Part shown: in pieces, positions 35,157-49,531 of the stretch
How positions within the stretch are numbered: position 1 is the first letter of the stretch
How the letters are laid out: every line of letters starts with the position of its first letter
NCBI GenBank assembly: GCA_019307745.1
Contig: JAFDJA010000002.1
Span: 1 to 49,696 of the forward strand
DNA length: 49,696 bases
Reading direction: 5' to 3'
DNA from: Deltaproteobacteria bacterium
Lineage (GTDB): Bacteria > Desulfobacterota > DSM-4660 > Desulfatiglandales > HGW-15
Notes under the pieces: model-generated
Told to the model about the DNA's origin: nothing
The model's input: only the letters and a program-made list of their open reading frames with translations
Databases searched by the model: none
Made by a program: the position numbers and the translations under genes

Positions 35157-35819
35157 GTGCTCGAGCTTAAAGATATTCATAAGTCATTCAAACAGAACGG
35201 GAATGTGATACAGGTCCTGAACGGGATAAATATGAAGGTAAATCCTGGAGAGAGCGTGGCTATCATGGGCGCATCCGGTGTGGGGAAATCCACACTTTTA
35301 AATGTCATGGGAACCCTGGAGCCTCCCACCCATGGTGAAGTCTTTTTGGGTGGAAATAATCTCTATGCTATGCGTGAATCAGAGCTGAATCGGTTAAGAA
35401 ACCGAAAAATAGGATTTGTCTTCCAGTTTCATCACCTGCTCCCGGAATTCAATGCAATTGAAAACACTATTATGCCAGCACTTATTGCCAGGATAAACAA
35501 AGATGAGGCAGAGGAAACTGCCAGGGATATCCTCTCAAAGGTAGGCCTTCAAAACAGACTGAATCACAGGATTGGCGAACTGTCCGGAGGCGAGCAGCAG
35601 CGGGTAGCCATCGCTAGGGCCTTGATTATGAAACCCCGGCTGCTGCTTGCTGATGAACCTACGGGAAATCTTGATAGGGTAACCGGCGGGGAGGTGATAG
35701 ACCTCCTTTTACGTCTGAGAGAGGAATCTGATCTGGGTATGGTTATAGCAACACACAACCAGAAATTTGCGGAAAAGATGTCAAGACTCATGGAGATTGT
35801 GGATGGCCGGATTCAATAG
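35157..35819 (+). CDS. lolD: Lipoprotein-releasing ABC transporter ATPase LolD
   Basis: This 220-residue ATPase powers lipoprotein release. Walker A is GASGVGKST, the signature LSGGEQQRVAIARALI, Walker B LLLADEPTGNLD and the H-loop ATHNQ; the Q-loop region FVFQFHHLLPEFNAIENTIMPALI is LolD/MacB-like. The GTG at 35157 has GAGG six bases upstream; an upstream TTG at 35145 overlaps this site. Its end overlaps the bamA start by 17 bases. Confidence 0.92.
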   Translation: MLELKDIHKSFKQNGNVIQVLNGINMKVNPGESVAIMGASGVGKSTLLNVMGTLEPPTHGEVFLGGNNLYAMRESELNRLRNRKIGFVFQFHHLLPEFNAIENTIMPALIARINKDEAEETARDILSKVGLQNRLNHRIGELSGGEQQRVAIARALIMKPRLLLADEPTGNLDRVTGGEVIDLLLRLREESDLGMVIATHNQKFAEKMSRLMEIVDGRIQ

Positions 35820-38577
35820 CTGGTTCAGAACAGATAGATCCGGCAGAAAAACATCAAGGCGTTTTGTTGATATGACTGTTATCCTGTTTGTGCTGCTATC
35901 CTGCCTTATAATAGCTGCACCTGGTCATGCAACCGTAGAGGAGAGTATTGCCGTACTTCCTTTTAACACTGGTTCCGGTGCCATGGAGGATCTTTCCTAT
36001 GAGATGCAGGCTATGCTCATAATGGACCTGAAAGAGAAGGGATTAGATGTTATTGGGGCAGACAGGGTCAACGGCTATTCAAAATCTTTTAAAACGGATC
36101 TCACCCGGGAGGATATTATAGAGATTCAAAAGGGATTGGAGGCGGACTGGCTAATCCTGGGAAACCTTGTCCAGACAGGGGTAATGACGAATCTTGCTAT
36201 CAAGGCCATACACTTTGGTTCTGCTGATGCCCCGATTCTCATCTCACTTGTGGATGACAGCCCGGACGGACTTGACGGACTGTCTGAAAAAGTTGCCGTT
36301 GCTATCAGTGATAATATTAAGGGGATCATCCGGATCTCTTCCATTCAGATCAAAGGAAACAGACGTGTTGAAGGTGATGCCATACTGGCAGTTATAGAGA
36401 GCAGGGAGGGGGGGAAATATGACCCTGAGCTCCTTGACCGTGATTTGCGTTTTATCTTCCAGATGGGGTATTTTAAGAATGTAAATATCGTGGCCGAGGA
36501 AGGTCCTGAAGGCAAAATAGTCATAATCGAAGTCCTGGAAAAACCATCCATAGGCCAGATCTCATTTGAAGAAAATGATGTGATGAGGGATAATTTACTG
36601 GAAGAGGAGATCGCAATAAAGAGGTTTTCTATTCTGGATCATACGGAGATAATGCAAAACATCAATATGCTGAAGGATTTCTATCAGCGTAAGGCCTACT
36701 ATAACATTGAAGTCACATACAGGATTGAGGAACTGCCCAATAATGAAGTCACATTGATCTTTGTCATAGATGAAGGTGAAAAGGTACATGTCAGAAATAT
36801 CAGATTCATAGGGAATGTAAAATTTGATGATGATGATTTGAAGGATGAAATAAAGACCAATGAAAAGGGTTTCTGGTTTTGGCTCACCCAATCTGGAAAA
36901 CTTGACAGGACTGAGCTGGAATTTGACATTGCACAGCTGAAAGCATTTTATCAGAGACAGGGCTATAAAAATTCAAATGTAGGAGATCCTGAAATAACCT
37001 ATGATGAAAAGACAGGCCTGACCATAACCATAGAGATCACTGAGGGTGAGCAGTACACTGTCAACGATATCAATTTTGAGGGCGATCTGATAAAACCGGA
37101 ATGGTTGCTCCTTAATGCGTTAAGTCTACAAAAGGATGATATATATAACCCTGAAATCTTATATGAGGATGTGCAATCGATCAAGACAATATATGGGAAT
37201 GAGGGGTATGCTTATACAGATGTTGAGATATTTACCAATGACAGTGATGAGTCCGGCAGGGTGGACATTACCTATGATATTGAGAAAAAAAAGCAGGTCT
37301 ATGTTGAAAGGATTAATATCACGGGGAATAGCAAGACCAGAGACAATGTAATACGAAGGGAATTTGAGATTGTTGAATCTGAGCTTTTTAGCTATACCGG
37401 GATCAAGGAGAGCCAGATGAATCTCTACCGCCTTGGTTTTTTTGAGGAGATAGAGTTAACTCAACAGGAAGGAATCAGGGATGACCTTGTAACCCTGGGT
37501 ATAAATGTGAAGGAGAGAGCCACTGGATCATTAAGTGCTGGAATAGGGTACAGTTCCTATGATGGATTTAATTCAACATTTCAATTGTCCCAGGAAAATC
37601 TTTTCGGTAGAGGACAGAAACTTGCGGCCTCCGCCAGTTTTGGAAAACGGACGAGGCAGTATGATATAAGTTTCACTGAACCATGGTTTCTGGGCAAAAG
37701 ACTGTCAGCAGGATTTGATATCTATGATATCAAGAACGAGTACGATGAATATACAAAGGAAAGTTTTGGAGGCTCGCTCCGTTTTGGGTTTCCCATCTCT
37801 AAGATAGATAAATTCACATGGGGTATAGTAAGATACGCGTATGACGAGGCTTTTATAACCATAGACAATTATATAAATGAGGAGGCAGGATATTATCCTG
37901 ATACTCCGTCTTCTCTTGGGGGGGGGAATTCAGAGGCAATCCTGGATATGGAGGGCCAGCATGTTACAAGGAGCCTCTCCCTGGGGTTGAGCCGTAGCTC
38001 AAAGGATCATCCATGGAATACCACCAGGGGATCTATCAATAAAATTACGTTTGAGACGGCTGGAGGCATCTTAAAAGGGGATGTTGCATATAATAAATAC
38101 GAGGCAAGATCAGCCTGGTACTTTCCTATATGGTGGGACCATGTCTATGTGATTCAGGGCAGGGCAGGGCTTGTTCATGAAAAGCCCGGCGGGACACTTC
38201 CTGTATACAAGAAATTCACATTAGGCGGAATGAATACTGTAAGGGGATATAGATATGGTACAATATCTCCCATGGATGGTAATGACAGAATTGGTGGTGA
38301 GATTATGTGGGTGGCCAACCTTGAATACAGAATCCCTCTTATAAAAGACGCAGGTGTGGTTGCCCTCTTTTTTGTAGACCTGGGAGGTGTTTCCACGTTG
38401 GAGGAGGGTTTTATATTTGATGGAGCCCCGGAAAACGGGTCAAGGGGATCAATCGGGACCGGGTTCCGATGGTATTCTCCTGTGGGGCCGCTTCGTCTGG
38501 AATTCGGGAAAAAGATGAACAGGCGTGAAGGCGAGTCCGCTGGGAATTGGGAGTTTACAATCGGGGGTTTATTGTAG
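35803..38577 (+). CDS. bamA: Outer membrane assembly factor BamA with extra N-terminal domain
   Basis: This 924-residue protein inserts beta-barrels into the outer membrane. After a basic start and signal segment (to ~residue 43, ...IIAAPGHA) comes an extra domain of ~130 residues (ESIAVLPFNTGSGAMEDLSYEMQAMLIMDLKEKGLDVIGADRV...ADWLILGNLV) resembling TolB-N/FlgT-type folds. Five POTRA repeats follow (~175-575), starting IRISSIQIKGNRRVEGDAIL, then the barrel (~577-924) with the GGMNTVRGYRYG loop motif. The last residues are TIGGLL, not the usual terminal aromatic. The ATG at 35803 has GGAG seven bases upstream; other in-frame starts give poorer signal peptides. Typical BamA proteins are ~750-850 residues. 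Confidence 0.9.
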   Translation: MAGFNSWFRTDRSGRKTSRRFVDMTVILFVLLSCLIIAAPGHATVEESIAVLPFNTGSGAMEDLSYEMQAMLIMDLKEKGLDVIGADRVNGYSKSFKTDLTREDIIEIQKGLEADWLILGNLVQTGVMTNLAIKAIHFGSADAPILISLVDDSPDGLDGLSEKVAVAISDNIKGIIRISSIQIKGNRRVEGDAILAVIESREGGKYDPELLDRDLRFIFQMGYFKNVNIVAEEGPEGKIVIIEVLEKPSIGQISFEENDVMRDNLLEEEIAIKRFSILDHTEIMQNINMLKDFYQRKAYYNIEVTYRIEELPNNEVTLIFVIDEGEKVHVRNIRFIGNVKFDDDDLKDEIKTNEKGFWFWLTQSGKLDRTELEFDIAQLKAFYQRQGYKNSNVGDPEITYDEKTGLTITIEITEGEQYTVNDINFEGDLIKPEWLLLNALSLQKDDIYNPEILYEDVQSIKTIYGNEGYAYTDVEIFTNDSDESGRVDITYDIEKKKQVYVERINITGNSKTRDNVIRREFEIVESELFSYTGIKESQMNLYRLGFFEEIELTQQEGIRDDLVTLGINVKERATGSLSAGIGYSSYDGFNSTFQLSQENLFGRGQKLAASASFGKRTRQYDISFTEPWFLGKRLSAGFDIYDIKNEYDEYTKESFGGSLRFGFPISKIDKFTWGIVRYAYDEAFITIDNYINEEAGYYPDTPSSLGGGNSEAILDMEGQHVTRSLSLGLSRSSKDHPWNTTRGSINKITFETAGGILKGDVAYNKYEARSAWYFPIWWDHVYVIQGRAGLVHEKPGGTLPVYKKFTLGGMNTVRGYRYGTISPMDGNDRIGGEIMWVANLEYRIPLIKDAGVVALFFVDLGGVSTLEEGFIFDGAPENGSRGSIGTGFRWYSPVGPLRLEFGKKMNRREGESAGNWEFTIGGLL

Positions 38578-38643
38578 GAGATTAATGTGATAGAGCCTGA
38601 ATCGTTCAGTCAATAAATTGTGATCCATTTTAAGGGAGGAAGT

Positions 38644-39186
38644 ATGAAGCATCTATTAAAAATAATAATGGGAATGATCCTTGTGGTAATGCTCTGTCAA
38701 AATGTATTGGCAGAAACTATTCCAAAGATAGCAATTGTGAATTTTCAGAAATGTATTGAAGGATCCCATGAAGGTCAGAAAAGGATTCAGGAATTAAAGG
38801 TTACACAGGAGGCTATTCAGCAGACTATAAAAGCAAAGGAGAGTGTCCTGAAGGGTCTGCAGATGGAGCTGGAAACAGGGTCGATGATGCTAAGCGCGGA
38901 GCAGATTACCTTAAAAGAAAATGAACTCAAAGAAAAATACGCTGAATACCAGACCTTTGTGCAGGAAAAAACAAAGGAGATGAATGCTGCTCATTCTGTA
39001 GCAAATGAAGCAGTAATAAAAGATCTTCTGAAAATTATTGAGAGGATTTCCAAAGAGGAAGAGTATGATATTGTCCTGAACAAAGATGCCAATATTTCAG
39101 GAATAGTGTTGTATGCTGATGATGGTCTGGATATTTCTGACAGAATAATTGTAGAATATAACAAGCTGAAACCTGTCCAGAAATAA
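38644..39186 (+). CDS. skp: Periplasmic chaperone, Skp/OmpH family
   Basis: This 180-residue protein has a cleavable signal peptide (MKHLLKIIMGMILVVMLCQN, cut after ...VLA) and the OmpH pattern IPKIAIVNFQKCIEGSHEGQKRIQEL, followed by a long charged coiled coil (~residues 45-125) and a short end (YDIVLNKDANISGIVLYADDGLDISDRII). Skp trimers hold unfolded outer-membrane proteins on their way to BamA. GGGAGGA lies four bases before the ATG at 38644. The bamA-skp-lpxD order is common in Gram-negative genomes. Confidence 0.88.
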   Translation: MKHLLKIIMGMILVVMLCQNVLAETIPKIAIVNFQKCIEGSHEGQKRIQELKVTQEAIQQTIKAKESVLKGLQMELETGSMMLSAEQITLKENELKEKYAEYQTFVQEKTKEMNAAHSVANEAVIKDLLKIIERISKEEEYDIVLNKDANISGIVLYADDGLDISDRIIVEYNKLKPVQK

Positions 39187-39246
39187 TCCTGGTCTGGGAT
39201 TCGAATCCTTTTTGTTTCTTGAATTGGAATATACCAGGAGGCTGTT

Positions 39247-40272
39247 GTGGAAAAGAGACTCAAATATATAGCAGATCTGGTTAAGGGAAAGATTGTTGGA
39301 GACGAAGACCTTATAATTAATGGCGTTAATTCTTTGGACAGGGCTTCTCAAGGAGATATTTCATCCCTTTTTGATAACAGCTACAAGGACCTCGCCACAC
39401 AGACAAAGGCCTCTGCCCTCCTTGTATCTGAAGAACTTGACCTATTTGAAGGCCCTCAGGTTGTGGTTGATAATCCCAAACTGGCATATGCCAGGATATC
39501 AGCAGTTTTTGCGCCTCCTGTTCCAAGGTTTCCTGGTATAAGCAAGGATGCCGTGATAGACAAAACCGCTGTAATAGGAAACCAGGTTTCTGTCTACCCC
39601 ATGGCCTATGTGGGGAAGAATGCCGTCATTGGTGACAACACAATAATTTTCCCCGGTGCTATTATCGGAGAAGAGGCAAAGGTTGGGAGCAATACGGTTA
39701 TCTTTCCCAACGTCAGTATAATGCATGGGTGTATAATCGGAAGCAATGTGATAATAAATGCGGGAAGCGTTATTGGAGGTGATGGTTTCGGTTTTGTAAA
39801 GGACAATTCAGAAAATATCAAGATTCCACAGGCAGGTATTGTTCAGATCGATGATAATGTTGAGATAGGAGCCAACAATACGATTGACCGTGCGGCAGTG
39901 GGTAAGACATGGATAAAAAGGGGGGTCAAAACCGACAATCTTGTGCATATTGCCCATAATGTGGTCATTGGAGAAGATTCTCTTATTGTAGGGCAGGCAG
40001 GGATCGCGGGGAGTACGGTACTGGGACGTGAAGTGATCATCAGCTCCCAATCAGGGGTTATAGACCACACGGATATTGGAGATAAAGCAATAATAGGTCC
40101 AAGATCCGGGGTTGTCAAACGTGTACCGGCAGGCGAGGTGGTAACAGGATATCCGGCCGTGCCTCACCGTTCATGGTTGAGGATGACCAGCTTGACAGCA
40201 AGACTTCCCAAACTCCTGGACCGCCTGAAAGAGCTGGAAAAAAGGGTTGAAGAATTGGAAAACAGGCAATAA
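39247..40272 (+). CDS. lpxD: UDP-3-O-acylglucosamine N-acyltransferase LpxD
   Basis: This 341-residue enzyme adds the N-linked acyl chain in lipid A synthesis. The N-terminal uridine-binding domain (LKYIADLVKGKIVGDEDLIINGVNSLDRASQGDISSLFDNSYKD) precedes a left-handed beta helix of hexapeptide repeats; the catalytic His lies in NLVHIAHNVVIGED. A short C-terminal coiled coil ends the protein (LPKLLDRLKELEKRVEELEN). The start is GTG with AGGAGG seven bases upstream. It is the first of the lipid A genes here. Confidence 0.93.
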   Translation: MEKRLKYIADLVKGKIVGDEDLIINGVNSLDRASQGDISSLFDNSYKDLATQTKASALLVSEELDLFEGPQVVVDNPKLAYARISAVFAPPVPRFPGISKDAVIDKTAVIGNQVSVYPMAYVGKNAVIGDNTIIFPGAIIGEEAKVGSNTVIFPNVSIMHGCIIGSNVIINAGSVIGGDGFGFVKDNSENIKIPQAGIVQIDDNVEIGANNTIDRAAVGKTWIKRGVKTDNLVHIAHNVVIGEDSLIVGQAGIAGSTVLGREVIISSQSGVIDHTDIGDKAIIGPRSGVVKRVPAGEVVTGYPAVPHRSWLRMTSLTARLPKLLDRLKELEKRVEELENRQ

Positions 40273-40392
40273 ATCAACCTTGACTTCGATGAAGATTTTA
40301 AATTCTTCAGGTCCCGCAAGACCGGGCTGATGACGGAATGCCAGCTTACTTTCAGTATGATAATGAAATCAGAGTAAAGAGGGAGAAACCAT

Positions 40393-40845
40393 ATGGAACT
40401 GCCAATCAATTATAAGGAGATAGTGAAATTACTTCCACATCGTTATCCATTTCTGCTTGTTGACAGGATTATAGAACTTGACCTTGGAGAAAAGGTGACA
40501 GGGATCAAGAACGTCACGAGTAATGAGCATTTTTTTCAGGGACATTTTCCAGATAATCCTGTAATGCCTGGTGTCCTGATAATCGAGGCCATGGCCCAGG
40601 TAGGAGGTATTCTGGCCCGACTCTCCATTGAAGACGAAATGAAGGATAAGGGCGACACCCCTCCGTCAATATTTTTCATGTCGATTGATAAAGTCAAATT
40701 TCGCAAACCAGTAATCCCGGGAGATCAGCTTGTCATCGAGGTCAAGCCCATCAGGACAGGATCAAGAGTCTGGAAGATGGAAGGAAGAAGCTTTGTTGAA
40801 GGGGCACTGGTTTCACAGGCGGAATTTATGGCTGCAATACAGTAA
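40393..40845 (+). CDS. fabZ: 3-hydroxyacyl-ACP dehydratase FabZ
   Basis: This 150-residue hot-dog-fold enzyme dehydrates 3-hydroxyacyl-ACP in fatty acid synthesis, competing with lipid A enzymes for the same substrate. Marks are LLPHRYPFLLVDRI, the catalytic His in FFQGHFPDNPVMPGVLIIEAMAQ (with the Glu), and PSIFFMSIDKVKFRKPVIPGDQL. GGGAGAAACC precedes the ATG. Position between lpxD and lpxA is the classic arrangement. Confidence 0.95.
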   Translation: MELPINYKEIVKLLPHRYPFLLVDRIIELDLGEKVTGIKNVTSNEHFFQGHFPDNPVMPGVLIIEAMAQVGGILARLSIEDEMKDKGDTPPSIFFMSIDKVKFRKPVIPGDQLVIEVKPIRTGSRVWKMEGRSFVEGALVSQAEFMAAIQ

Positions 40846-40868
40846 TACCCTTACTATGGAGCGTAAAA

Positions 40869-41651
40869 ATGGATATCCACCCCACAGCTATAGTAAGCCC
40901 CAAGGCTGAACTGGCCTCGGGCGTTAAAATCGGGCCGTACTGTGTTATCGGTGAGAAAGTCATTATTGGAAAAGACACTTTACTTGCTTCCCATGTAGTG
41001 ATTGAAGGGCCAGCTACTATTGGAGAGCGAAATGTAATCTATCAGTTCGCGTCCCTGGGCACACCACCCCAGGATACCGGATATAGAGGAGAGGACACAC
41101 GTATCGTCATTGGAAATGATAATGAGATTCGTGAGTATGTAACTATAAACAGGGCCACATCCAAACAGGATTGGGAAACGGTTGTAGGAAATAATAACTT
41201 TCTCATGGCTGCGGCACACGTGGCCCATGACTGTGTAGTCGGTGATCATGTGATCCTGTCAAATGCTGTTGCTGTTGCAGGGCATACCGTTGTCGGAGAT
41301 CATTCTACATTTGGAGGATTTTCGGCAACCCATCAGTATATCCGCATTGGTGTACATGCCTTTATAGGGGGAAAGGTCGCAGTCACCCAGGATATACCTC
41401 CCTTTATGATGGCATCAGCAGGACCGGGTGGAAGGGCCAAATTATTCGGGCCGAACCAGAATGGTCTTAGACACACTGGATTTTCCAGGGAGGTCATTGC
41501 AGGGTTAAAAAGGGCCTATAAGATCATATGGCGGGATAATAGAAGTTTTAAAGACGGCGTAAGGCAGGCTAGGGAGGAAATAGAGCTGTTCCCGGAACTT
41601 AACACACTGCTGGATTTCATCGAGACATCAAAGAGAGGTGTTGCAAGATAA
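40869..41651 (+). CDS. lpxA: UDP-N-acetylglucosamine acyltransferase LpxA
   Basis: This 260-residue enzyme catalyses the first lipid A step, O-acylation of UDP-GlcNAc. It is a left-handed beta helix with hexapeptide repeats (HPTAIVSPKAELASGVKIGPYCVIGEKVIIG). The catalytic His is in MAAAHVAHDCVVGDHVILSN; FGGFSATHQYIRIGVHAFIGG and the helical C-terminus (LKRAYKIIWRDNRSFKDGVRQAREEI) are typical. A 23-base gap to fabZ suggests one transcript. Substrate form (GlcNAc or the 3-amino analogue) cannot be read by eye. Confidence 0.95.
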   Translation: MDIHPTAIVSPKAELASGVKIGPYCVIGEKVIIGKDTLLASHVVIEGPATIGERNVIYQFASLGTPPQDTGYRGEDTRIVIGNDNEIREYVTINRATSKQDWETVVGNNNFLMAAAHVAHDCVVGDHVILSNAVAVAGHTVVGDHSTFGGFSATHQYIRIGVHAFIGGKVAVTQDIPPFMMASAGPGGRAKLFGPNQNGLRHTGFSREVIAGLKRAYKIIWRDNRSFKDGVRQAREEIELFPELNTLLDFIETSKRGVAR

Positions 41652-41749
41652 GCTGTTTAAACTTTGCTTTAAATATAAGACTTTCAGCGCTTTGCTAAGA
41701 TACCGCATACGGATTCAAGTATTATATTTGTAAATATCTTTTAGATAAT

Positions 41750-42592
41750 ATGACCGAAAAAAGAGAAAGTATAGGTATTATATCGGGTGGAGGGCAATTC
41801 CCGCTGCTTGTGGCTGACTCCATACGTCGAATGGGGATGAGGGTCATTGCGGTAGCCCATGTTGAAGACACAGATCCCTCTCTTGAGGAAAAGGTAGATA
41901 AAATTATCTGGATAAAACTCGGGAAGCTTGGCAGACTGATCAAGGTTTTCAAACAGAATAATGTGAAAAAGGTCCTCATGGCCGGGACAATTTCTAAGAA
42001 CCATATGTTCAGCAAGGCGAGACCTGACATAAGGGGATTGAGTTTTATATCCAGGCTGGCAATCTTTCATGATGATGGGATACTGAGGGCGCTGGCGGAT
42101 GAGCTTGCAAAGGAAGGCATTGAGATCGTAAGTTCCACAAAATATCTGCCTGAACTCCTTGCCCCTGAGGGTTGCCTTACAAAACGCAGACCATCAAAGG
42201 GTGACAAGGAGGATATCTGTATCGGATGGGAAGTAGCAAAAGAGCTTGGAAGGCTTGATATCGGACAGTGCGTTGTAGTCAGAAAAAGAGCGATTGTCGC
42301 GCTTGAAGGGATTGACGGGACAGATGCAACGATCTCGAGGGGCGGCAAGCTTGCTGAAAAAGGCGCTGTAGTTGTCAAGATCTGCAAGCCGAATCAGGAC
42401 ACACGCTTTGATGTCCCTTCAGTGGGTCTTGATACACTAAATGTAATGTCAGAGGTAAAGGCTGCAGTTCTTACTGTTGAGGCCGGAAAAACACTGATGT
42501 TTAATCGGGAAGAAATGATAAGGTATGCAGACAAGGAAGGCATTTCTATTATAGCGTATAAGGAAGGACCCGAGGCTCCGGGGCGGAAATAG
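41750..42592 (+). CDS. lpxI: UDP-2,3-diacylglucosamine pyrophosphatase LpxI
   Basis: This 280-residue protein belongs to the LpxI (DUF1009) family, which hydrolyses UDP-2,3-diacylglucosamine to lipid X in bacteria lacking LpxH. Marks are GIISGGGQFPLLVADSIRRMG at the start, KKVLMAGTISKNHMF, DDGILRALADELAKEGIEIVSS and EGIDGTDATISRGGKLAEKGAVVVKICKPNQDTRFDVPSVGLDTL. The position between lpxA and lpxB supports the role. No good ribosome site precedes the ATG; a 98-base gap follows lpxA. Confidence 0.92.
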   Translation: MTEKRESIGIISGGGQFPLLVADSIRRMGMRVIAVAHVEDTDPSLEEKVDKIIWIKLGKLGRLIKVFKQNNVKKVLMAGTISKNHMFSKARPDIRGLSFISRLAIFHDDGILRALADELAKEGIEIVSSTKYLPELLAPEGCLTKRRPSKGDKEDICIGWEVAKELGRLDIGQCVVVRKRAIVALEGIDGTDATISRGGKLAEKGAVVVKICKPNQDTRFDVPSVGLDTLNVMSEVKAAVLTVEAGKTLMFNREEMIRYADKEGISIIAYKEGPEAPGRK

Positions 42593-42603
42593 CGGAGAAT
42601 ATT

Positions 42604-43563
42604 ATGAAGATTGATAAGTTAAGAGTAGGTGTTATAGGTGTCGGCCATCTGGGTGAATATCATGTGCAGAAGTACAGGAACATTCCAATGGTAGACCTGG
42701 TGGGCATTGTTGATGCCAACCCTGAACGGGCAGATATGATTGGTCAGTCTTATGATACCAGGATATTTCAAGGACACAAAGAGCTATTAAAAGAGGTGGA
42801 CGCTGTAAGCCTGGTTGTTCCGACGACCGTGCATTATGAGGTAGCCAAAGATGTCCTTGCTCAAGGGATTCATCTCCTAATTGAAAAACCAATAACATAC
42901 AAGCTTGAACCGGCTAACACCCTGGTTGCCATGGCGCAGGAAAAGAATCTTGTGCTTCAGGTCGGGCTGGTAGAAAGATTTAATCCTGCTGTTGTCAAGA
43001 TGGAATCAATCCTTGACCGACCGGTTTTTATTGAGGCGCAACGTATGAATAAGTTTACTCTAAGGGGAACAGACGCGGATGTTGTCCTTGACCTTATGAT
43101 CCATGATCTGGATATTATCCTCCATATAGTTAATTCTGAAATCAAGGAACTCAGGGCCGTTGGGATGTCTGTTACAACGGATAAAACAGACATCGCCAAT
43201 GCCAGAATAATATTTGAGAACGGGACAGTTGCAACACTTACAGCAAGCAGAGTGTCAGACAAGACAATAAGGAAGACGCGTATTTTTCAGCCTGACTGTT
43301 ATATGGAGGTCGATTTTTTCAAGAGAAAACTCAGCATTGCCCGGTTGGGTGATGTGGCAGGAGATCCGTTAAAATTGGCTCAGATCAAGGCAGAAAATGA
43401 GACCTTTCCGGACAGCGACCCATTAGCAGATGAGATAAAATCTTTTGTATATGCAGTAAACAACGGGCGGGAACCTGTTGTGAGTGGTCATGACGGGAGA
43501 AAGGCATTAAAGGTCTCTCTTGATATTATTAAACTGATAAAAAAAGGTTCAAAAAATTTTTAG
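42604..43563 (+). CDS. Gfo/Idh/MocA-family oxidoreductase within the lipid A cluster
   Basis: This 319-residue NAD(P)-dependent oxidoreductase has the N-terminal Rossmann fold (LRVGVIGVGHLGEYHVQKY), the EKP motif (HLLIEKPITYKL) and the C-terminal alpha/beta domain (DVVLDLMIHDLDIILHIV). It starts 11 bases after lpxI. One known lipid A role for such an enzyme is GnnA, which oxidises UDP-GlcNAc at C3 before the GnnB aminotransferase acts; no GnnB-like gene is here. Function is therefore open: a lipid A sugar modification is an inference from context only. Confidence 0.85.
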   Translation: MKIDKLRVGVIGVGHLGEYHVQKYRNIPMVDLVGIVDANPERADMIGQSYDTRIFQGHKELLKEVDAVSLVVPTTVHYEVAKDVLAQGIHLLIEKPITYKLEPANTLVAMAQEKNLVLQVGLVERFNPAVVKMESILDRPVFIEAQRMNKFTLRGTDADVVLDLMIHDLDIILHIVNSEIKELRAVGMSVTTDKTDIANARIIFENGTVATLTASRVSDKTIRKTRIFQPDCYMEVDFFKRKLSIARLGDVAGDPLKLAQIKAENETFPDSDPLADEIKSFVYAVNNGREPVVSGHDGRKALKVSLDIIKLIKKGSKNF

Positions 43564-43628
43564 TTGCCCGGATGGCTGTTGAGCATATCACCCATGTCCT
43601 TTGAAAGATTAAACTAGATAACTACATT

Positions 43629-44783
43629 GTGAGTAATGCATCAAAACATGTCCTGATTGTCGCTGGTGAGGCATCCGGTGACCTCCACGGATCCAATCTT
43701 GTGAGCGCCATGAAAAAAATTGATCCTGAGATATCTATCCGGGGTATCGGCGGTGACAAGATGATGGACGCAGGAGTGGATATTCTTGCCCATGCTTCTG
43801 ATATGGCAGTTGTCGGACTGACTGAAGCCATATCAAAACTCCATTTTATATACAAGACATCTCTGGGCCTCAAACGGTTAATAAAAAATAGCCGTCCAGA
43901 CCTGCTTATCCTTATTGACTATCCGGATTTTAATATCAACCTTGCTCGCACAGCCAGGCAGTGCAGTGTGCCGGTATTATATTATGTAAGCCCACAGATA
44001 TGGGCATGGAGAAGCGGCAGAATCAAAAAGATAGCTGCAAGGGTGGACAGGATGGCTGTGATACTACCTTTTGAAAAGGAGTTCTATCGCGATAGCGACC
44101 TGAAAGTTGATTATGTGGGACACCCTCTTCTGGATTCCGTTCCCAAGGGGTTGGATAGAGGTCAGTTGGTTGTTGATATGGATCTTAATGGGGCTAGTCC
44201 TGTGATAGGATTTCTGCCTGGAAGCAGAAAAGAGGAAGTGCTGAGTCTGCTTCCTGTTATGGTAAAGGCTGCAGAAGCACTTGCATCCCATTATCCAGGT
44301 TTGAAATGTATTATTCCGGTTGCGCCTACCATTTCCCCTGAATTGGTCCTGTCTATTATCGGGCAATCCGATCTGGATATTCGGATATCCAGATCGGATA
44401 TCTATAAAACCCTGGCAGTCTGTGACCTTGCCCTGGTTGCGTCAGGCACAGCTACCTTGGAGACCGCAATCATGGAGGTTCCAATGGTGATAATTTACAA
44501 GATATCACCTCTCTCATATTGGATAGGTAAAAAGATCATTAATGTTCAGTATATCGGATTGGTCAATCTCATAGCAGGCAAGGAGGTAGTGCCCGAACTT
44601 GTCCAGAAGGAAGTCACTCCTGAAATTATTGAGAAAGAGGTAATTGCCATACTTGGAGACAATCCCCGGAGAGAATTGATAATAAATGATTTGAAAATGG
44701 TCAAACATCGCATGGGAAGCGGCGGGGCTTCTGAAAGGACGGCAAGGATTGCCATGGAGATGATAGAAAATTTTTCACAGTAA
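43629..44783 (+). CDS. lpxB: Lipid A disaccharide synthase LpxB
   Basis: This 384-residue family 19 glycosyltransferase joins lipid X to UDP-2,3-diacylglucosamine. Marks are VLIVAGEASGDLHGSNLVSAMKK, GIGGDKMMDAGVDIL, ILIDYPDFNINLA, YYVSPQIWAWRSGRIKKI and GFLPGSRKEEVLSLLP. The start codon is GTG (43629) without a clear ribosome site. The coding sequence contains a perfect 14-base inverted repeat (44367-44398). It is last in the lipid A run; lpxC and lpxK are not in the window. Confidence 0.94.
   Translation: MSNASKHVLIVAGEASGDLHGSNLVSAMKKIDPEISIRGIGGDKMMDAGVDILAHASDMAVVGLTEAISKLHFIYKTSLGLKRLIKNSRPDLLILIDYPDFNINLARTARQCSVPVLYYVSPQIWAWRSGRIKKIAARVDRMAVILPFEKEFYRDSDLKVDYVGHPLLDSVPKGLDRGQLVVDMDLNGASPVIGFLPGSRKEEVLSLLPVMVKAAEALASHYPGLKCIIPVAPTISPELVLSIIGQSDLDIRISRSDIYKTLAVCDLALVASGTATLETAIMEVPMVIIYKISPLSYWIGKKIINVQYIGLVNLIAGKEVVPELVQKEVTPEIIEKEVIAILGDNPRRELIINDLKMVKHRMGSGGASERTARIAMEMIENFSQ
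44367..44398. repeat. Perfect 14-bp inverted repeat inside lpxB
   Basis: TCCGATCTGGATAT (44367-44380) is exactly complementary to 44385-44398 across a TCGG loop. It encodes part of SDLDIRISRSD. No T-run follows. Confidence 0.85.
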
Positions 44784-44817
44784 ACGTCTTTCTTAAAACA
44801 GAGAAGAGGTAAGACCA

Positions 44818-46185
44818 ATGGCAAGAACCATATTAGTGGTTGATGATGAGAAAAGCATACTGCAGTCCCTGGAAGGCATCCTTTCGGACGAAGGTTTCGA
44901 GGTCGTCATTGCCAGGAGTGGAAAAGAGGCGCTGGTGAAAATTGATGAGGTGTTTCCTGACCTGGTCCTGCTGGATATTTGGATGCCGGGTACGGACGGA
45001 ATAGAAACACTAACGGAGATAAAAGAGCGCTATCCTTCCCTGCAGGTAGTTATGATGTCCGGACACGGTACTATTGAGACTGCAGTAAAGGCAACCAGAC
45101 ATGGGGCATATGACTTTATAGAAAAGCCGCTCTCCCTGGAAAAGGTCCTCCTGTCAATAAACAATGCCCTGGATTATTATAAACTGGAACAGAATATTAA
45201 CATCCTGAAGGAAAAGGATAAGGGACGATATCAGATCACTGGAAGCAGCCGGGCTATTGCAGAGCTAAAAGAGCAGATCCGGATTGTAGCTCCTACAAAC
45301 GCATGGGTACTTGTCTCAGGAGAAAACGGCACAGGCAAGGAACTTGTGGCACATATGATACATGATATGAGCGGACGGAGCAGCAAGCCCCTGGTAGAAG
45401 TGAACTGTGCTGCCATCCCTGAAGAGCTGATAGAAAGTGAACTTTTTGGCCATGAAAAAGGTGCCTTTACAGGAGCAAATTCCATGAAGAGGGGCAAATT
45501 TGACCAGGCCAATGAAGGATCTCTTTTCCTTGATGAGATCGGCGACATGAGCCTGAAGGCGCAGGCAAAGACACTCAGGATACTTCAGGAGCAGAAGTTT
45601 GAGAGGGTGGGAGGTGCTAGAACTATTCAGGTGGATGTGCGTGTATTGGCTGCTACAAATAAGGACCTTGAGGCTGAAATTGAAAAGGGGACCTTTAGGG
45701 AGGACCTCTTCTTCCGGTTGAATGTTATCCCAATACAGGTTCCTCCCTTAAGAGAACGCATTGATGACGTGCCCGAACTGACAGAAAAATTCATCAAGGA
45801 CATTTCTGTGGATGCCAACCTTGAATTAAAAGAATTTTCATTAAACGCCATCGAAATACTCAAGAGACACAGCTGGCCCGGCAATGTCAGGGAGCTGAAG
45901 AATCTCGTTGAAAGGCTTGCTATCATGGTGCCAGAGCCTATCATACGGGCCGAGGATATCCCCGCGCCTTATAACAAAATATCAAGGGTTCAGACTTCCC
46001 CGGAATCAAACTTTATGAAGACCAACTCCTTTAAGGACGCGCGGTCGCAATTTGAAAAGGAATTTATTGCCAAAAAACTACAGGAATGCAAGGGGAATAT
46101 CTCTCAGACCGCGGAAACCATAGGGATCGAAAGGAGTAATCTCCATAAAAAGATCAAGGCCTATGATCTGGATAAGTCTAAATAG
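44818..46185 (+). CDS. Sigma54-dependent response regulator (NtrC/NtrX type)
   Basis: This 455-residue transcription factor has a receiver domain (~1-120; LVVDDEKS acidic pair, phospho-Asp in LVLLDIWMPG, Lys in FIEKPLS), a central AAA+ domain (~145-380; Walker A GENGTGKE, the sigma54-contacting GAFTGA loop in ELFGHEKGAFTGAN, Walker B SLFLDEIGDM, R-finger region FREDLFFRLNVIPI) and a Fis-type helix-turn-helix (ECKGNISQTAETIGIERSNLHKKIKAYDL). The C-terminus is most like NtrX. It activates sigma54 promoters when phosphorylated. No kinase gene is adjacent. AGAGGTAAGACCA precedes the ATG; the gap to lpxB is 34 bases. Confidence 0.92.
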   Translation: MARTILVVDDEKSILQSLEGILSDEGFEVVIARSGKEALVKIDEVFPDLVLLDIWMPGTDGIETLTEIKERYPSLQVVMMSGHGTIETAVKATRHGAYDFIEKPLSLEKVLLSINNALDYYKLEQNINILKEKDKGRYQITGSSRAIAELKEQIRIVAPTNAWVLVSGENGTGKELVAHMIHDMSGRSSKPLVEVNCAAIPEELIESELFGHEKGAFTGANSMKRGKFDQANEGSLFLDEIGDMSLKAQAKTLRILQEQKFERVGGARTIQVDVRVLAATNKDLEAEIEKGTFREDLFFRLNVIPIQVPPLRERIDDVPELTEKFIKDISVDANLELKEFSLNAIEILKRHSWPGNVRELKNLVERLAIMVPEPIIRAEDIPAPYNKISRVQTSPESNFMKTNSFKDARSQFEKEFIAKKLQECKGNISQTAETIGIERSNLHKKIKAYDLDKSK

Positions 46186-47047: not shown

Positions 47048-48223
47048 TTAACGATAAAGTGGATGGTTGGGTTTCATAACTTTTCTCCATTCCTCTGGTT
47101 GTTCCTCCTGCCAGGATGGAATTTTCATTTTCTTTTTACGGTATAGTAATGAAGCAACCTTGAGATAGCTTTTCCGGGCTATGTTCGAACGTTCAAATGC
47201 CTTGATAATAAAATTATGTGGGAATGTACGAGGTCGAGTCCAGGGACAATACGCGACACAAAGACTGCAATTAGCGCCTGAACGCAGAAAATATTCGAAA
47301 CAAGCAGAGGCATTAAGCGGCCACTTTTTCACACCCCTGATCGTTTTTTTCTCACCAATATGGATGGCACCTGCGGGACAGTATTTGACACAAATGTTGC
47401 ACTGGCTACAGAACTCATCCACACCTATATCCACCGGCCTATCATATACCAAAGGCATATCAGTAGTTACAGTCATTGGTTTTATAGCGCTCCCATATTC
47501 TTTTGTGATAAATATGCCGTTTCTTGCAAGCTCCCCAAAGCCGGCATCTATTGCCAACGGTACATGCAGCACTTGAGAATTATGATTATGGGCCCTTGCC
47601 TCATACCCAAGTGAGCGAATGTACCGTGCAAGTGTTACTACTATCGTAGATAGGCGAAGGTATATTGCTCCGGTTGCAAGAGCTATTGTAAAACGGGGAG
47701 CACACTCAATTTCATCTTGTTTGTATGCAATCGCTACGACGATAGCATGTTTATTGGGAGGGTGAGCCGGGATATCGCTAGGGTTGCCTGAATGATCGGG
47801 TGAAGATATATTTTTATACGTCCACGATGGATTAAAAGGTCCAATCTTAACCAAATCCGCGCCCAGATGTCGCGCGAAACCCTTTATTTTAGAAGATGCC
47901 CGTTTGGGATCAATAACTATTTTTTCAGGTGCAGGTTCACCGTCTACGTATTCTTCCTTCGCCATGACATTGGGTATAAAACGCATTGCATTCTCCATTA
48001 GCTCATCTTGTGGAGCTATACGAAGACGATGCTTCCTGCTCTTTTGTAGGTCAGCCCATTTTCTGCTTTGGGCTTCAAGATCAGGGTGTTTTCGGTAATA
48101 GCTTTGCCATAATTCACTGTCTGGAATCAAGTGACGGCGCGCCATTACAGTATCGGCCCGGTCTATTCGCTCGAGTTCTCCCACTATCTCATACTTCGGT
48201 TTAACCAACTCCCGTTTTGACAT
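47048..48223 (-). CDS. Reductive-dehalogenase-like cobalamin/Fe-S protein without Tat signal
   Basis: This 391-residue protein ends with two [4Fe-4S] motifs in the arrangement of reductive dehalogenases: FCSQCNICVKYCPAGAI, then CFEYFLRSGANCSLCVAYCPWTRP. The upstream core (GADLVKIGPF, AIVVAIAYKQDE, YIRSLGYEARAHNHNSQVLHVPLAIDAGFGELARNGIFITKEYGS) matches the cobalamin-binding half shared by reductive dehalogenases and epoxyqueuosine reductase. It lacks a twin-arginine signal and no RdhB-like anchor is adjacent, so a cytoplasmic location is inferred. The ATG has AAGGAGG ten bases upstream. A true dehalogenase role is not proven; QueG is less likely given the extra N-terminal ~130 residues and spacing. 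Confidence 0.78.
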   Translation of the reverse strand: MSKRELVKPKYEIVGELERIDRADTVMARRHLIPDSELWQSYYRKHPDLEAQSRKWADLQKSRKHRLRIAPQDELMENAMRFIPNVMAKEEYVDGEPAPEKIVIDPKRASSKIKGFARHLGADLVKIGPFNPSWTYKNISSPDHSGNPSDIPAHPPNKHAIVVAIAYKQDEIECAPRFTIALATGAIYLRLSTIVVTLARYIRSLGYEARAHNHNSQVLHVPLAIDAGFGELARNGIFITKEYGSAIKPMTVTTDMPLVYDRPVDIGVDEFCSQCNICVKYCPAGAIHIGEKKTIRGVKKWPLNASACFEYFLRSGANCSLCVAYCPWTRPRTFPHNFIIKAFERSNIARKSYLKVASLLYRKKKMKIPSWQEEQPEEWRKVMKPNHPLYR

Positions 48224-48799
48224 CTGAATAATCCTCCTTACTAATTTTGCATTGCCTTTATTTCACGTCCGGCTCCTCAAGTTCTTTCTTTAATTTTGCA
48301 GAGGGATATTCCGGTTCATATCAATATCACAGTTCCTAGTGGAAAGACTATACACTGTCATAATCAATGCTACGCCTCAAGGGCATTTTTATCAAGCTTT
48401 CGTTTTGTAATCGTTACTGCTTTCTATAAATCAATGAAGGATTTTTCCAGATCAGAAAGGGAGAAAAATGACATGCTTGGATCTGTGTTAGCTTGCCAAT
48501 ATTGGGTAATGTTTGAATCGTTGTATTTTTCATGGACAGCTCTGATTCCTTCTCTATTTACTTGAGGTTTATCTAAGTGTTCACAAAACCGGTGTAATAT
48601 TAATTAGCCAACTTCTATTTAAAGCACTTGATTCACACCCTGTTTTTTTATATAGTCGGTTGCGATTAGTATTGGTTTTTGGCATATATAAATACGGGGT
48701 AGTATGTATATGGCTTCAGGATATGATGATTAAATCCTGGACCTGACTACCCTTTACATATAAATCATTCAATTGAAAATCTGAAGAGGTGTAATTATT
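48224..48799. other. Divergent intergenic region, RdhA-like gene to the selenoprotein
   Basis: No gene is supported; an 89-codon frame at 48296-48565 has no recognisable domain. A weak promoter-like pair TTGATT (48629-48634) and TATATA (48650-48655) has a 15-base spacer, too short for a confident call. Confidence 0.35.
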
Positions 48800-49531
48800 A
48801 TGAACCAAACTCTCAAAATAGGAGTTATTGGAGATTTTGATCAAAGTCGGCCTTCACAACTCAAGACTGATGAAGCCATAGATCATGTATCAAATGAATT
48901 GTCCGTCGCTATAGATACTATTTGGCTACCGACAAAATCATTGAAAAAGCAAACTGCGGCCACAAAGCTTCGGGATTTCCATGCTCTTTGGGCTGGCCCT
49001 GGTAGTTATGAAAATCCCGACGGAGTAATAGAAGCTATAAGGTTCTGCAGGGAGCAGCAATGGCCTTTTATAGGGACCTGAGGAGGCTTTCAACATACTC
49101 TGTTAGAGTATGCGATTAATGAACTGAATATTAAAAATGCTTCTCATGAAGGAATAAACCCATCTTTATCGACGCATGTAATCAATAAACTTAGCTGTTC
49201 CCTGGTCGGAGAATCCCAAACGATACGTGTTATACCGGCAACCATAGCATATGAGTCTTATGGAAAGGACTTGATCGTTGAAAGGTTTCAATGTAACTAT
49301 GGTTTAAATGAAAAGTATAGAAATGATTTGAGTGATGGAAACCTTAAAATCTCTGGCTTTGATGATGATGATAATGCCAGAATCATTGAGATACCGAACC
49401 ATCGATTCTTTATTGCAACCTTATTTCTACCGCAGTTTACTTCGAAATCCGGCATGTCCCACCCGTTAATTTTGTCGTTTGTTAAAGCTGCAATAAGATT
49501 TAAGGATATGAAAAATAGGAATAATGTGTAG
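48800..49531 (+). CDS. CTP synthase C-terminal-region-related selenoprotein (UGA at codon 94)
   Basis: Read through the in-frame TGA at 49079-49081, this is one 243-residue protein. Around it the sequence is WPFIGT-Sec-GGFQHTLLEYA, where relatives have a Cys in the nucleophile elbow of a class I glutamine amidotransferase. The frame continues unbroken to TAG at 49529-49531. The first half (IGVIGDFDQSRPSQLKTDEAIDHV, LWAGPGSYENPDGVIEAIRFCREQ) and second half (RFQCNYGLNEKYR, FFIATLFLPQFTSKSGMSHPLILSFVKAA) both match the glutaminase part of CTP synthase, without the synthetase domain. The usual HPE of the triad is LPQ (residues 210-212). A SECIS-like hairpin follows the UGA. AGAGG precedes the ATG. 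A family with Sec or Cys forms is known to annotators; its reaction is unknown to me. A nonsense pseudogene is the alternative. Confidence 0.8.
49094..49112 (+). promoter_or_regulatory. SECIS-like hairpin of the amidotransferase-like selenoprotein
   Basis: CATACTCT (49094-49101) pairs perfectly with AGAGTATG (49105-49112) around a GTT loop. The loop starts 21 bases after the UGA. A G at the loop start and this distance fit bacterial SECIS elements. Confidence 0.72.

Follow-up and report, generated by a model that had tools for sequence, protein, structure and literature searches.

A predicted selenoprotein that stems from the glutaminase domain of CTP synthase, with lost catalytic residues and a possible thiol/selenol active site

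The window is a stretch of 49,696 nucleotides from a Deltaproteobacteria bacterium (assembly GCA_019307745.1, contig JAFDJA010000002.1). Near its 3' end lies a gene for a predicted selenoprotein, which begins with ATG at 48800 and ends with a TAG stop at 49529-49531. Its only in-frame TGA is codon 94 (49079-49081), and translation with TGA as U joins the two halves in one frame, as the earlier note had described. The features of the locus are listed below.

48784..48789, + strand: AAGAGG, a ribosome-binding-site-like sequence 10 nt 5' of the ATG (sequence reading)
48800..49531, + strand: predicted selenoprotein gene, 243 residues plus stop, family NF004836 (TGA=U translation, NCBIfam score, AF2/Foldseek)
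49079..49081, + strand: TGA codon 94, almost certainly Sec, aligned to E. coli CTP synthase Cys379 (TGA in 4 other members, Cys in 11)
49094..49112, + strand: SECIS-like hairpin, 8-bp stem 49094-49101/49105-49112, loop GTT 49102-49104 (pairs counted)
49196..49198, + strand: Cys133, invariant in the family (16/16 members versus 0/36 CTP synthases)
49292..49294, + strand: Cys165, at the place of CTP synthase His469 (T. brucei His499), proposed resolving Cys (16/16 versus 0/36 CTP synthases)
49427..49435, + strand: Leu-Pro-Gln 210-212, in place of the catalytic His-Pro-Glu (alignments)

The protein matched the NCBIfam family NF004836 with 298.9 bits (cut-off 260), and residues 5-231 covered positions 1-227 of the 228 in the profile. 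NF004836 (PRK06186) is the "CTP synthase C-terminal region-related (seleno)protein" family. The scores against CTP synthase profiles were 127.1 bits (cut-off 308) and 124.6 bits (cut-off 462.75), both below threshold. The protein is a stand-alone domain without the synthase half; the upstream gene is on the opposite strand, and the genome's own intact CTP synthase (532 aa) sits on a different contig. An AF2 model had a pLDDT of 94.2; its input alignment comprised the window protein, two further members of the family and 28 CTP synthase domains. In the model, strand 90-93 and helix 95-108 flank the codon-94 site. The top Foldseek matches were the glutaminase domain of CTP synthase (E ~1e-22, TM ~0.9). 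A sequence search for a solved structure of the NF004836 family found none, and a genome-contig search with the window protein as single query returned CTP synthase only. In the tree, the NF004836 family was split from the CTP synthases with full support. By its sequence, the protein is a descendant of the CTP synthase glutaminase domain that has lost catalytic residues.

Codon 94 is embedded in FIGT-U-GGFQHTLLEYA, where GTUGGFQ fits the nucleophile elbow GxCxGxQ, and it aligns to Cys379 of E. coli CTP synthase (CTPS). The UGA is located at the amidotransferase nucleophile, in agreement with the earlier note. Further genes with TGA at this codon were found in G458 and G407, which belong to the class of the window genome, in G622, which belongs to the phylum of a Eubacteriaceae assembly, and as a broken copy in G083. 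The broken copy (L004 1460-1975 on G083:C107) retains the TGA and an intact hairpin, and its N-terminal part is shortened and in another frame, which may reflect either an internal deletion or a misassembly. Eleven homologues have Cys instead (8 plasmid records, the genome G568 and 2 viral-contig records). The alternation of Cys and Sec at residue 94, which had been suggested as a check, was thus found between five TGA genes and 11 Cys genes, and this position is Cys or Sec in 16/16 members. The five TGA genes form one clade with moderate support (81/82), so the Sec members are not independent events. When the window gene was compared with that of G407, the identity was 49% before the TGA and 54% after it, dN was 0.41 and 0.40, and the codon-position substitution patterns were alike on both sides. 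Because identity and substitution patterns match those of the part before it, the stretch 3' of the TGA is under protein-level selection.

The hairpin 3' of the UGA, with its 8-bp stem and GTT loop, was also as described before. It reads CAUACUCU-GUU-AGAGUAUG, forms 8 Watson-Crick pairs and has its stem base 12 nt past the UGA. When synonymous codons were randomised according to the usage of the window genes, 8/8 pairs were obtained in 0.5% of trials. The full 8-bp stem was present in 5/5 TGA genes but in 0/11 Cys genes, for which the maximum was 6/8 pairs. The loops of the five TGA genes are GUU, GGU or GAU, so that G always opens the loop. The sole varying stem pair is A-U, G-U or G-C, and it is the one pair with changes in both partners. 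The covariation count on the stem did not beat the shuffle control, and covariation alone proves little because a single stem pair varies. For this reason, the hairpin is argued from the contrast between Sec and Cys genes and from the synonymous-codon test, and not from covariation. Rfam scans at the hairpin gave no match.

Consistently, selB, a tRNA-Sec with anticodon TCA (read from L041) and a partial selA were found in the window genome. The sel genes proposed for inspection were selA, selB, selC and selD; the first three were found, and selD over cut-off was not found in this 92%-complete assembly of 334 contigs. SelB was over cut-off in 4/4 other genomes with the TGA gene and not over cut-off in G568, the sole whole Cys-form genome searched. 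The alternative reading, in which the TGA is a genuine stop or arose by misassembly and the gene is a pseudogene, would agree with the G083 relative being broken by an internal deletion and with the window copy being a diverged Sec member. This is extremely unlikely, as TGA is the identical codon across five genomes, the hairpin is conserved, and substitutions 3' of the TGA follow a coding pattern. The UGA is almost certainly read as selenocysteine, a reading well supported by the Cys/TGA alternation, the hairpin contrast, the SelB distribution, the genome's own sel genes and the selection after the TGA.

To compare the active-site residues, 16 family members and 36 CTP synthase domains were aligned jointly and numbered as in E. 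coli CTPS. Leu-Pro-Gln 210-212 aligns to His515-Pro516-Glu517 of CTPS. The earlier note had seen LPQ at this segment and concluded that the catalytic His and Glu were gone. This is right for the window copy, but the loss of His is family-wide and not tied to Sec: residue 210 is Leu, Val or Gln in 16/16 members and His in 0/16, Cys forms included. The Glu is retained in most Cys forms: residue 212 is Glu in ten of them, whereas Gln occurs in Methylobacter, a Cys relative, and in the five TGA members. Since the Cys forms also lack the His, its loss came before selenium or apart from it. Arg470 is replaced in 15/16 members, and the oxyanion strand PGGF of CTPS has become PGSPY or similar. Gln98, the counterpart of Gln383 in the oxyanion site, is kept in all members. 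Cys133 and Cys165 are both invariant in the family and absent from all 36 CTP synthase domains, and Cys165 falls on E. coli His469 in a gap-free alignment.

The structure of T. brucei CTPS gives a guide to this last position. In that structure, His499 is near the nucleophilic Cys419, and another rotamer of it would approach the thiol; Glu502 keeps His499 away from the nucleophile, and Arg500 contributes to the oxyanion site (PMC5413811). From the shared ERHRHRYE motif, we infer that T. brucei His499 corresponds to E. coli His469. The family residues at T. brucei His499, Arg500 and Glu502 are Cys165, mostly Asn, and mostly Gly (or Ser/Ala), respectively.

The window copy has several features of its own. 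It has Gln20 (48857-48859) where other members have His, it is one residue short in the PGSPY motif (48995-49012), and it has Gly118 (49151-49153) at the place of Glu403, where nearly all other members have Glu. Its residue composition was flagged in the tree check. The window copy may be adapting or starting to decay.

Glutamine amidotransferase activity is, with strong reason, expected to be absent from this protein, because the His is lost family-wide, the Glu is lost here, Arg470 is lost and there is no synthase domain. We infer with moderate confidence that the site has turned from glutaminase to thiol/selenol chemistry. In the proposed mechanism, the helix dipole at the nucleophile elbow would activate Sec94, or Cys94 in relatives, and for Sec its low pKa would contribute. 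Sec94 or Cys94 would attack an oxidised or thiol-type substrate, Cys165 would then resolve it as a selenenylsulfide or disulfide, and cellular thiols would reduce this bond again, with Cys133 as a second thiol. A thiol/selenol enzyme is preferred because an invariant Cys165 at the place of His469 is combined with an elbow nucleophile and no general base. The two extra cysteines in every relative likewise suggest redox chemistry. Sec at the nucleophile would fit a thiol-based oxidoreductase, since such enzymes make up the majority of the selenoprotein families reported, according to a 2026 review (PMC13188914). No redox gene partner was found near family members when their gene neighbourhoods were compared. 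Overall, there is about an even chance that this NF004836 selenoprotein has an active site turned to thiol/selenol chemistry in which Sec94 is the attacking and Cys165 the resolving residue. The earlier note had held that the protein is unlikely to be an ordinary glutaminase and may do redox chemistry, and this stays the best guess, to which the invariant Cys133 and Cys165 and the loss of Arg470 can now be added.

Cys133 and Cys165 could instead serve metal binding or a hydrolase. As a hydrolase or acyl-transferase, Cys/Sec94 would attack a non-glutamine carbonyl (amide, ester or thioester) with a relocated base, for example His99 or His116. In favour of this, the protein retains the fold, the nucleophile elbow and Gln98, and the two histidines, found in 15/16 and 14/16 members respectively, are both absent from CTPS. 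Some hydrolytic chemistry is possible because most Cys members keep Glu212 and all members keep Gln98. However, neither histidine is invariant: residue 116 is Thr or Asp in two members, and residue 99 is Tyr in L073, which shows that the family can do without His99. The L073 member (2271-2290) comes from a viral-contig record. Selenium is rare in hydrolases, and the two invariant Cys and the use of Sec would be left unexplained, which makes a hydrolase unlikely. Binding or delivery of a metal or metalloid through Sec/Cys94, Cys133 and Cys165 would account for three invariant chalcogen residues, but we know of no metal motif with the 94/133/165 spacing. Metals are common among the predicted ligands of selenoprotein families according to the 2026 review, which would fit such a role (PMC13188914); no metal-resistance or metal-cofactor genes were seen in the gene context, and a metal-binding function is quite improbable.

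The family name, the fold and the label "glutamine amidotransferase (COG0504)" given by deep-Sep (PMC12013277) would agree with a glutaminase that has a changed catalytic base and supplies ammonia to a partner. This is very unlikely in view of the loss of His in 16/16 members and of Arg470 in 15/16, the change of PGGF to PGSPY-like sequences and the Gly118 of the window copy at Glu403, and an adjoining gene for a synthase partner was not seen. For the preferred thiol/selenol enzyme, a history can be proposed tentatively, at somewhat less than even chance: a class I amidotransferase domain would have become a thiol oxidoreductase before Sec came in, its base being dropped, the His being replaced by Cys and one clade being upgraded to Sec. 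If this is true, the amidotransferase fold would carry selenol redox activity, a role for which it is not known.

The selenoprotein status of the family is already catalogued, and the window gene adds a member. Under the name "glutamine amidotransferase (COG0504, PyrG)", deep-Sep (2025) reported the Sec form from Desulfosediminicola ganghwensis, together with its TGA, homologues that have Cys and a structure resembling a SECIS element (PMC12013277). A table of the 2026 review includes the same family as NF004836, with the motif GxUxG and the accession WP_419249736.1 (PMC13188914). No reaction is assigned in the accessible text of either source, and the missing His and the extra Cys are not discussed there (PMC12013277, PMC13188914). 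The NF004836 match also bears out the earlier statement that the family is annotated in databases without an assigned reaction. New here are the loss of His and Arg470 across the family, the invariance of Cys133 and Cys165, the hairpin contrast between Sec and Cys genes and the link of Cys165 to the active site of CTP synthase, for which no earlier report was found in a search that lay mostly outside the subscription literature. The shared residue losses and the invariant Cys turn "function unknown" into a testable Sec94-Cys165 bond, and the database names "CTP synthase" and "glutamine amidotransferase" mislead for NF004836 proteins.

Like other NF004836 members, the window protein has a full-length match over the cut-off, the GxUxG site, the lost His, Cys133 and Cys165, and it differs from them in the short PGSPY motif, Gln20 and Gly118. 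It shares the fold, the nucleophile position and Gln98 with the amidotransferase domain of CTP synthase (PyrG). In contrast to PyrG, it is without the synthase domain, His515, Arg470, Glu517 and Glu403, and it has Cys133 and Cys165. The proposed chemistry of a Sec-Cys pair is that of thioredoxin-fold Sec/Cys oxidoreductases, whereas the fold is another one, there is no CxxU, and the pair is 71 residues apart.

When the neighbours of Sec and Cys members were compared, nothing was consistently shared and no conserved neighbourhood was seen. In the window, the divergent upstream gene (47048-48223, - strand) encodes a 4Fe-4S dicluster protein, of which only the ferredoxin domains pass Pfam, and its product looks like a relative of reductive dehalogenases or epoxyqueuosine reductases. 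Further upstream, 35767-46185 holds, as read from the translations, BamA, Skp-like, LpxD, FabZ, LpxA, LpxI-like and LpxB genes followed by an NtrC-type regulator, apparently an ordinary outer-membrane/lipid A gene run. In Klebsiella (CP125156.1, L050 3346-4693), the Cys-form gene adjoins a DUF523 (TudS-like desulfidase) gene in the opposite direction. DUF523 too was reported by deep-Sep as a new selenoprotein (PMC12013277). A thiopyrimidine link through DUF523 was considered for the Klebsiella member and rejected, as DUF523 is not beside other members. The E. coli genomes searched yielded nothing closely homologous to the Klebsiella gene. On a plasmid of Streptomyces sp. NBC_01708 (L054 809-4705), the Cys-form gene is the last in a same-strand run with aroA and gpmI homologues, and this run looks like a biosynthetic cluster.
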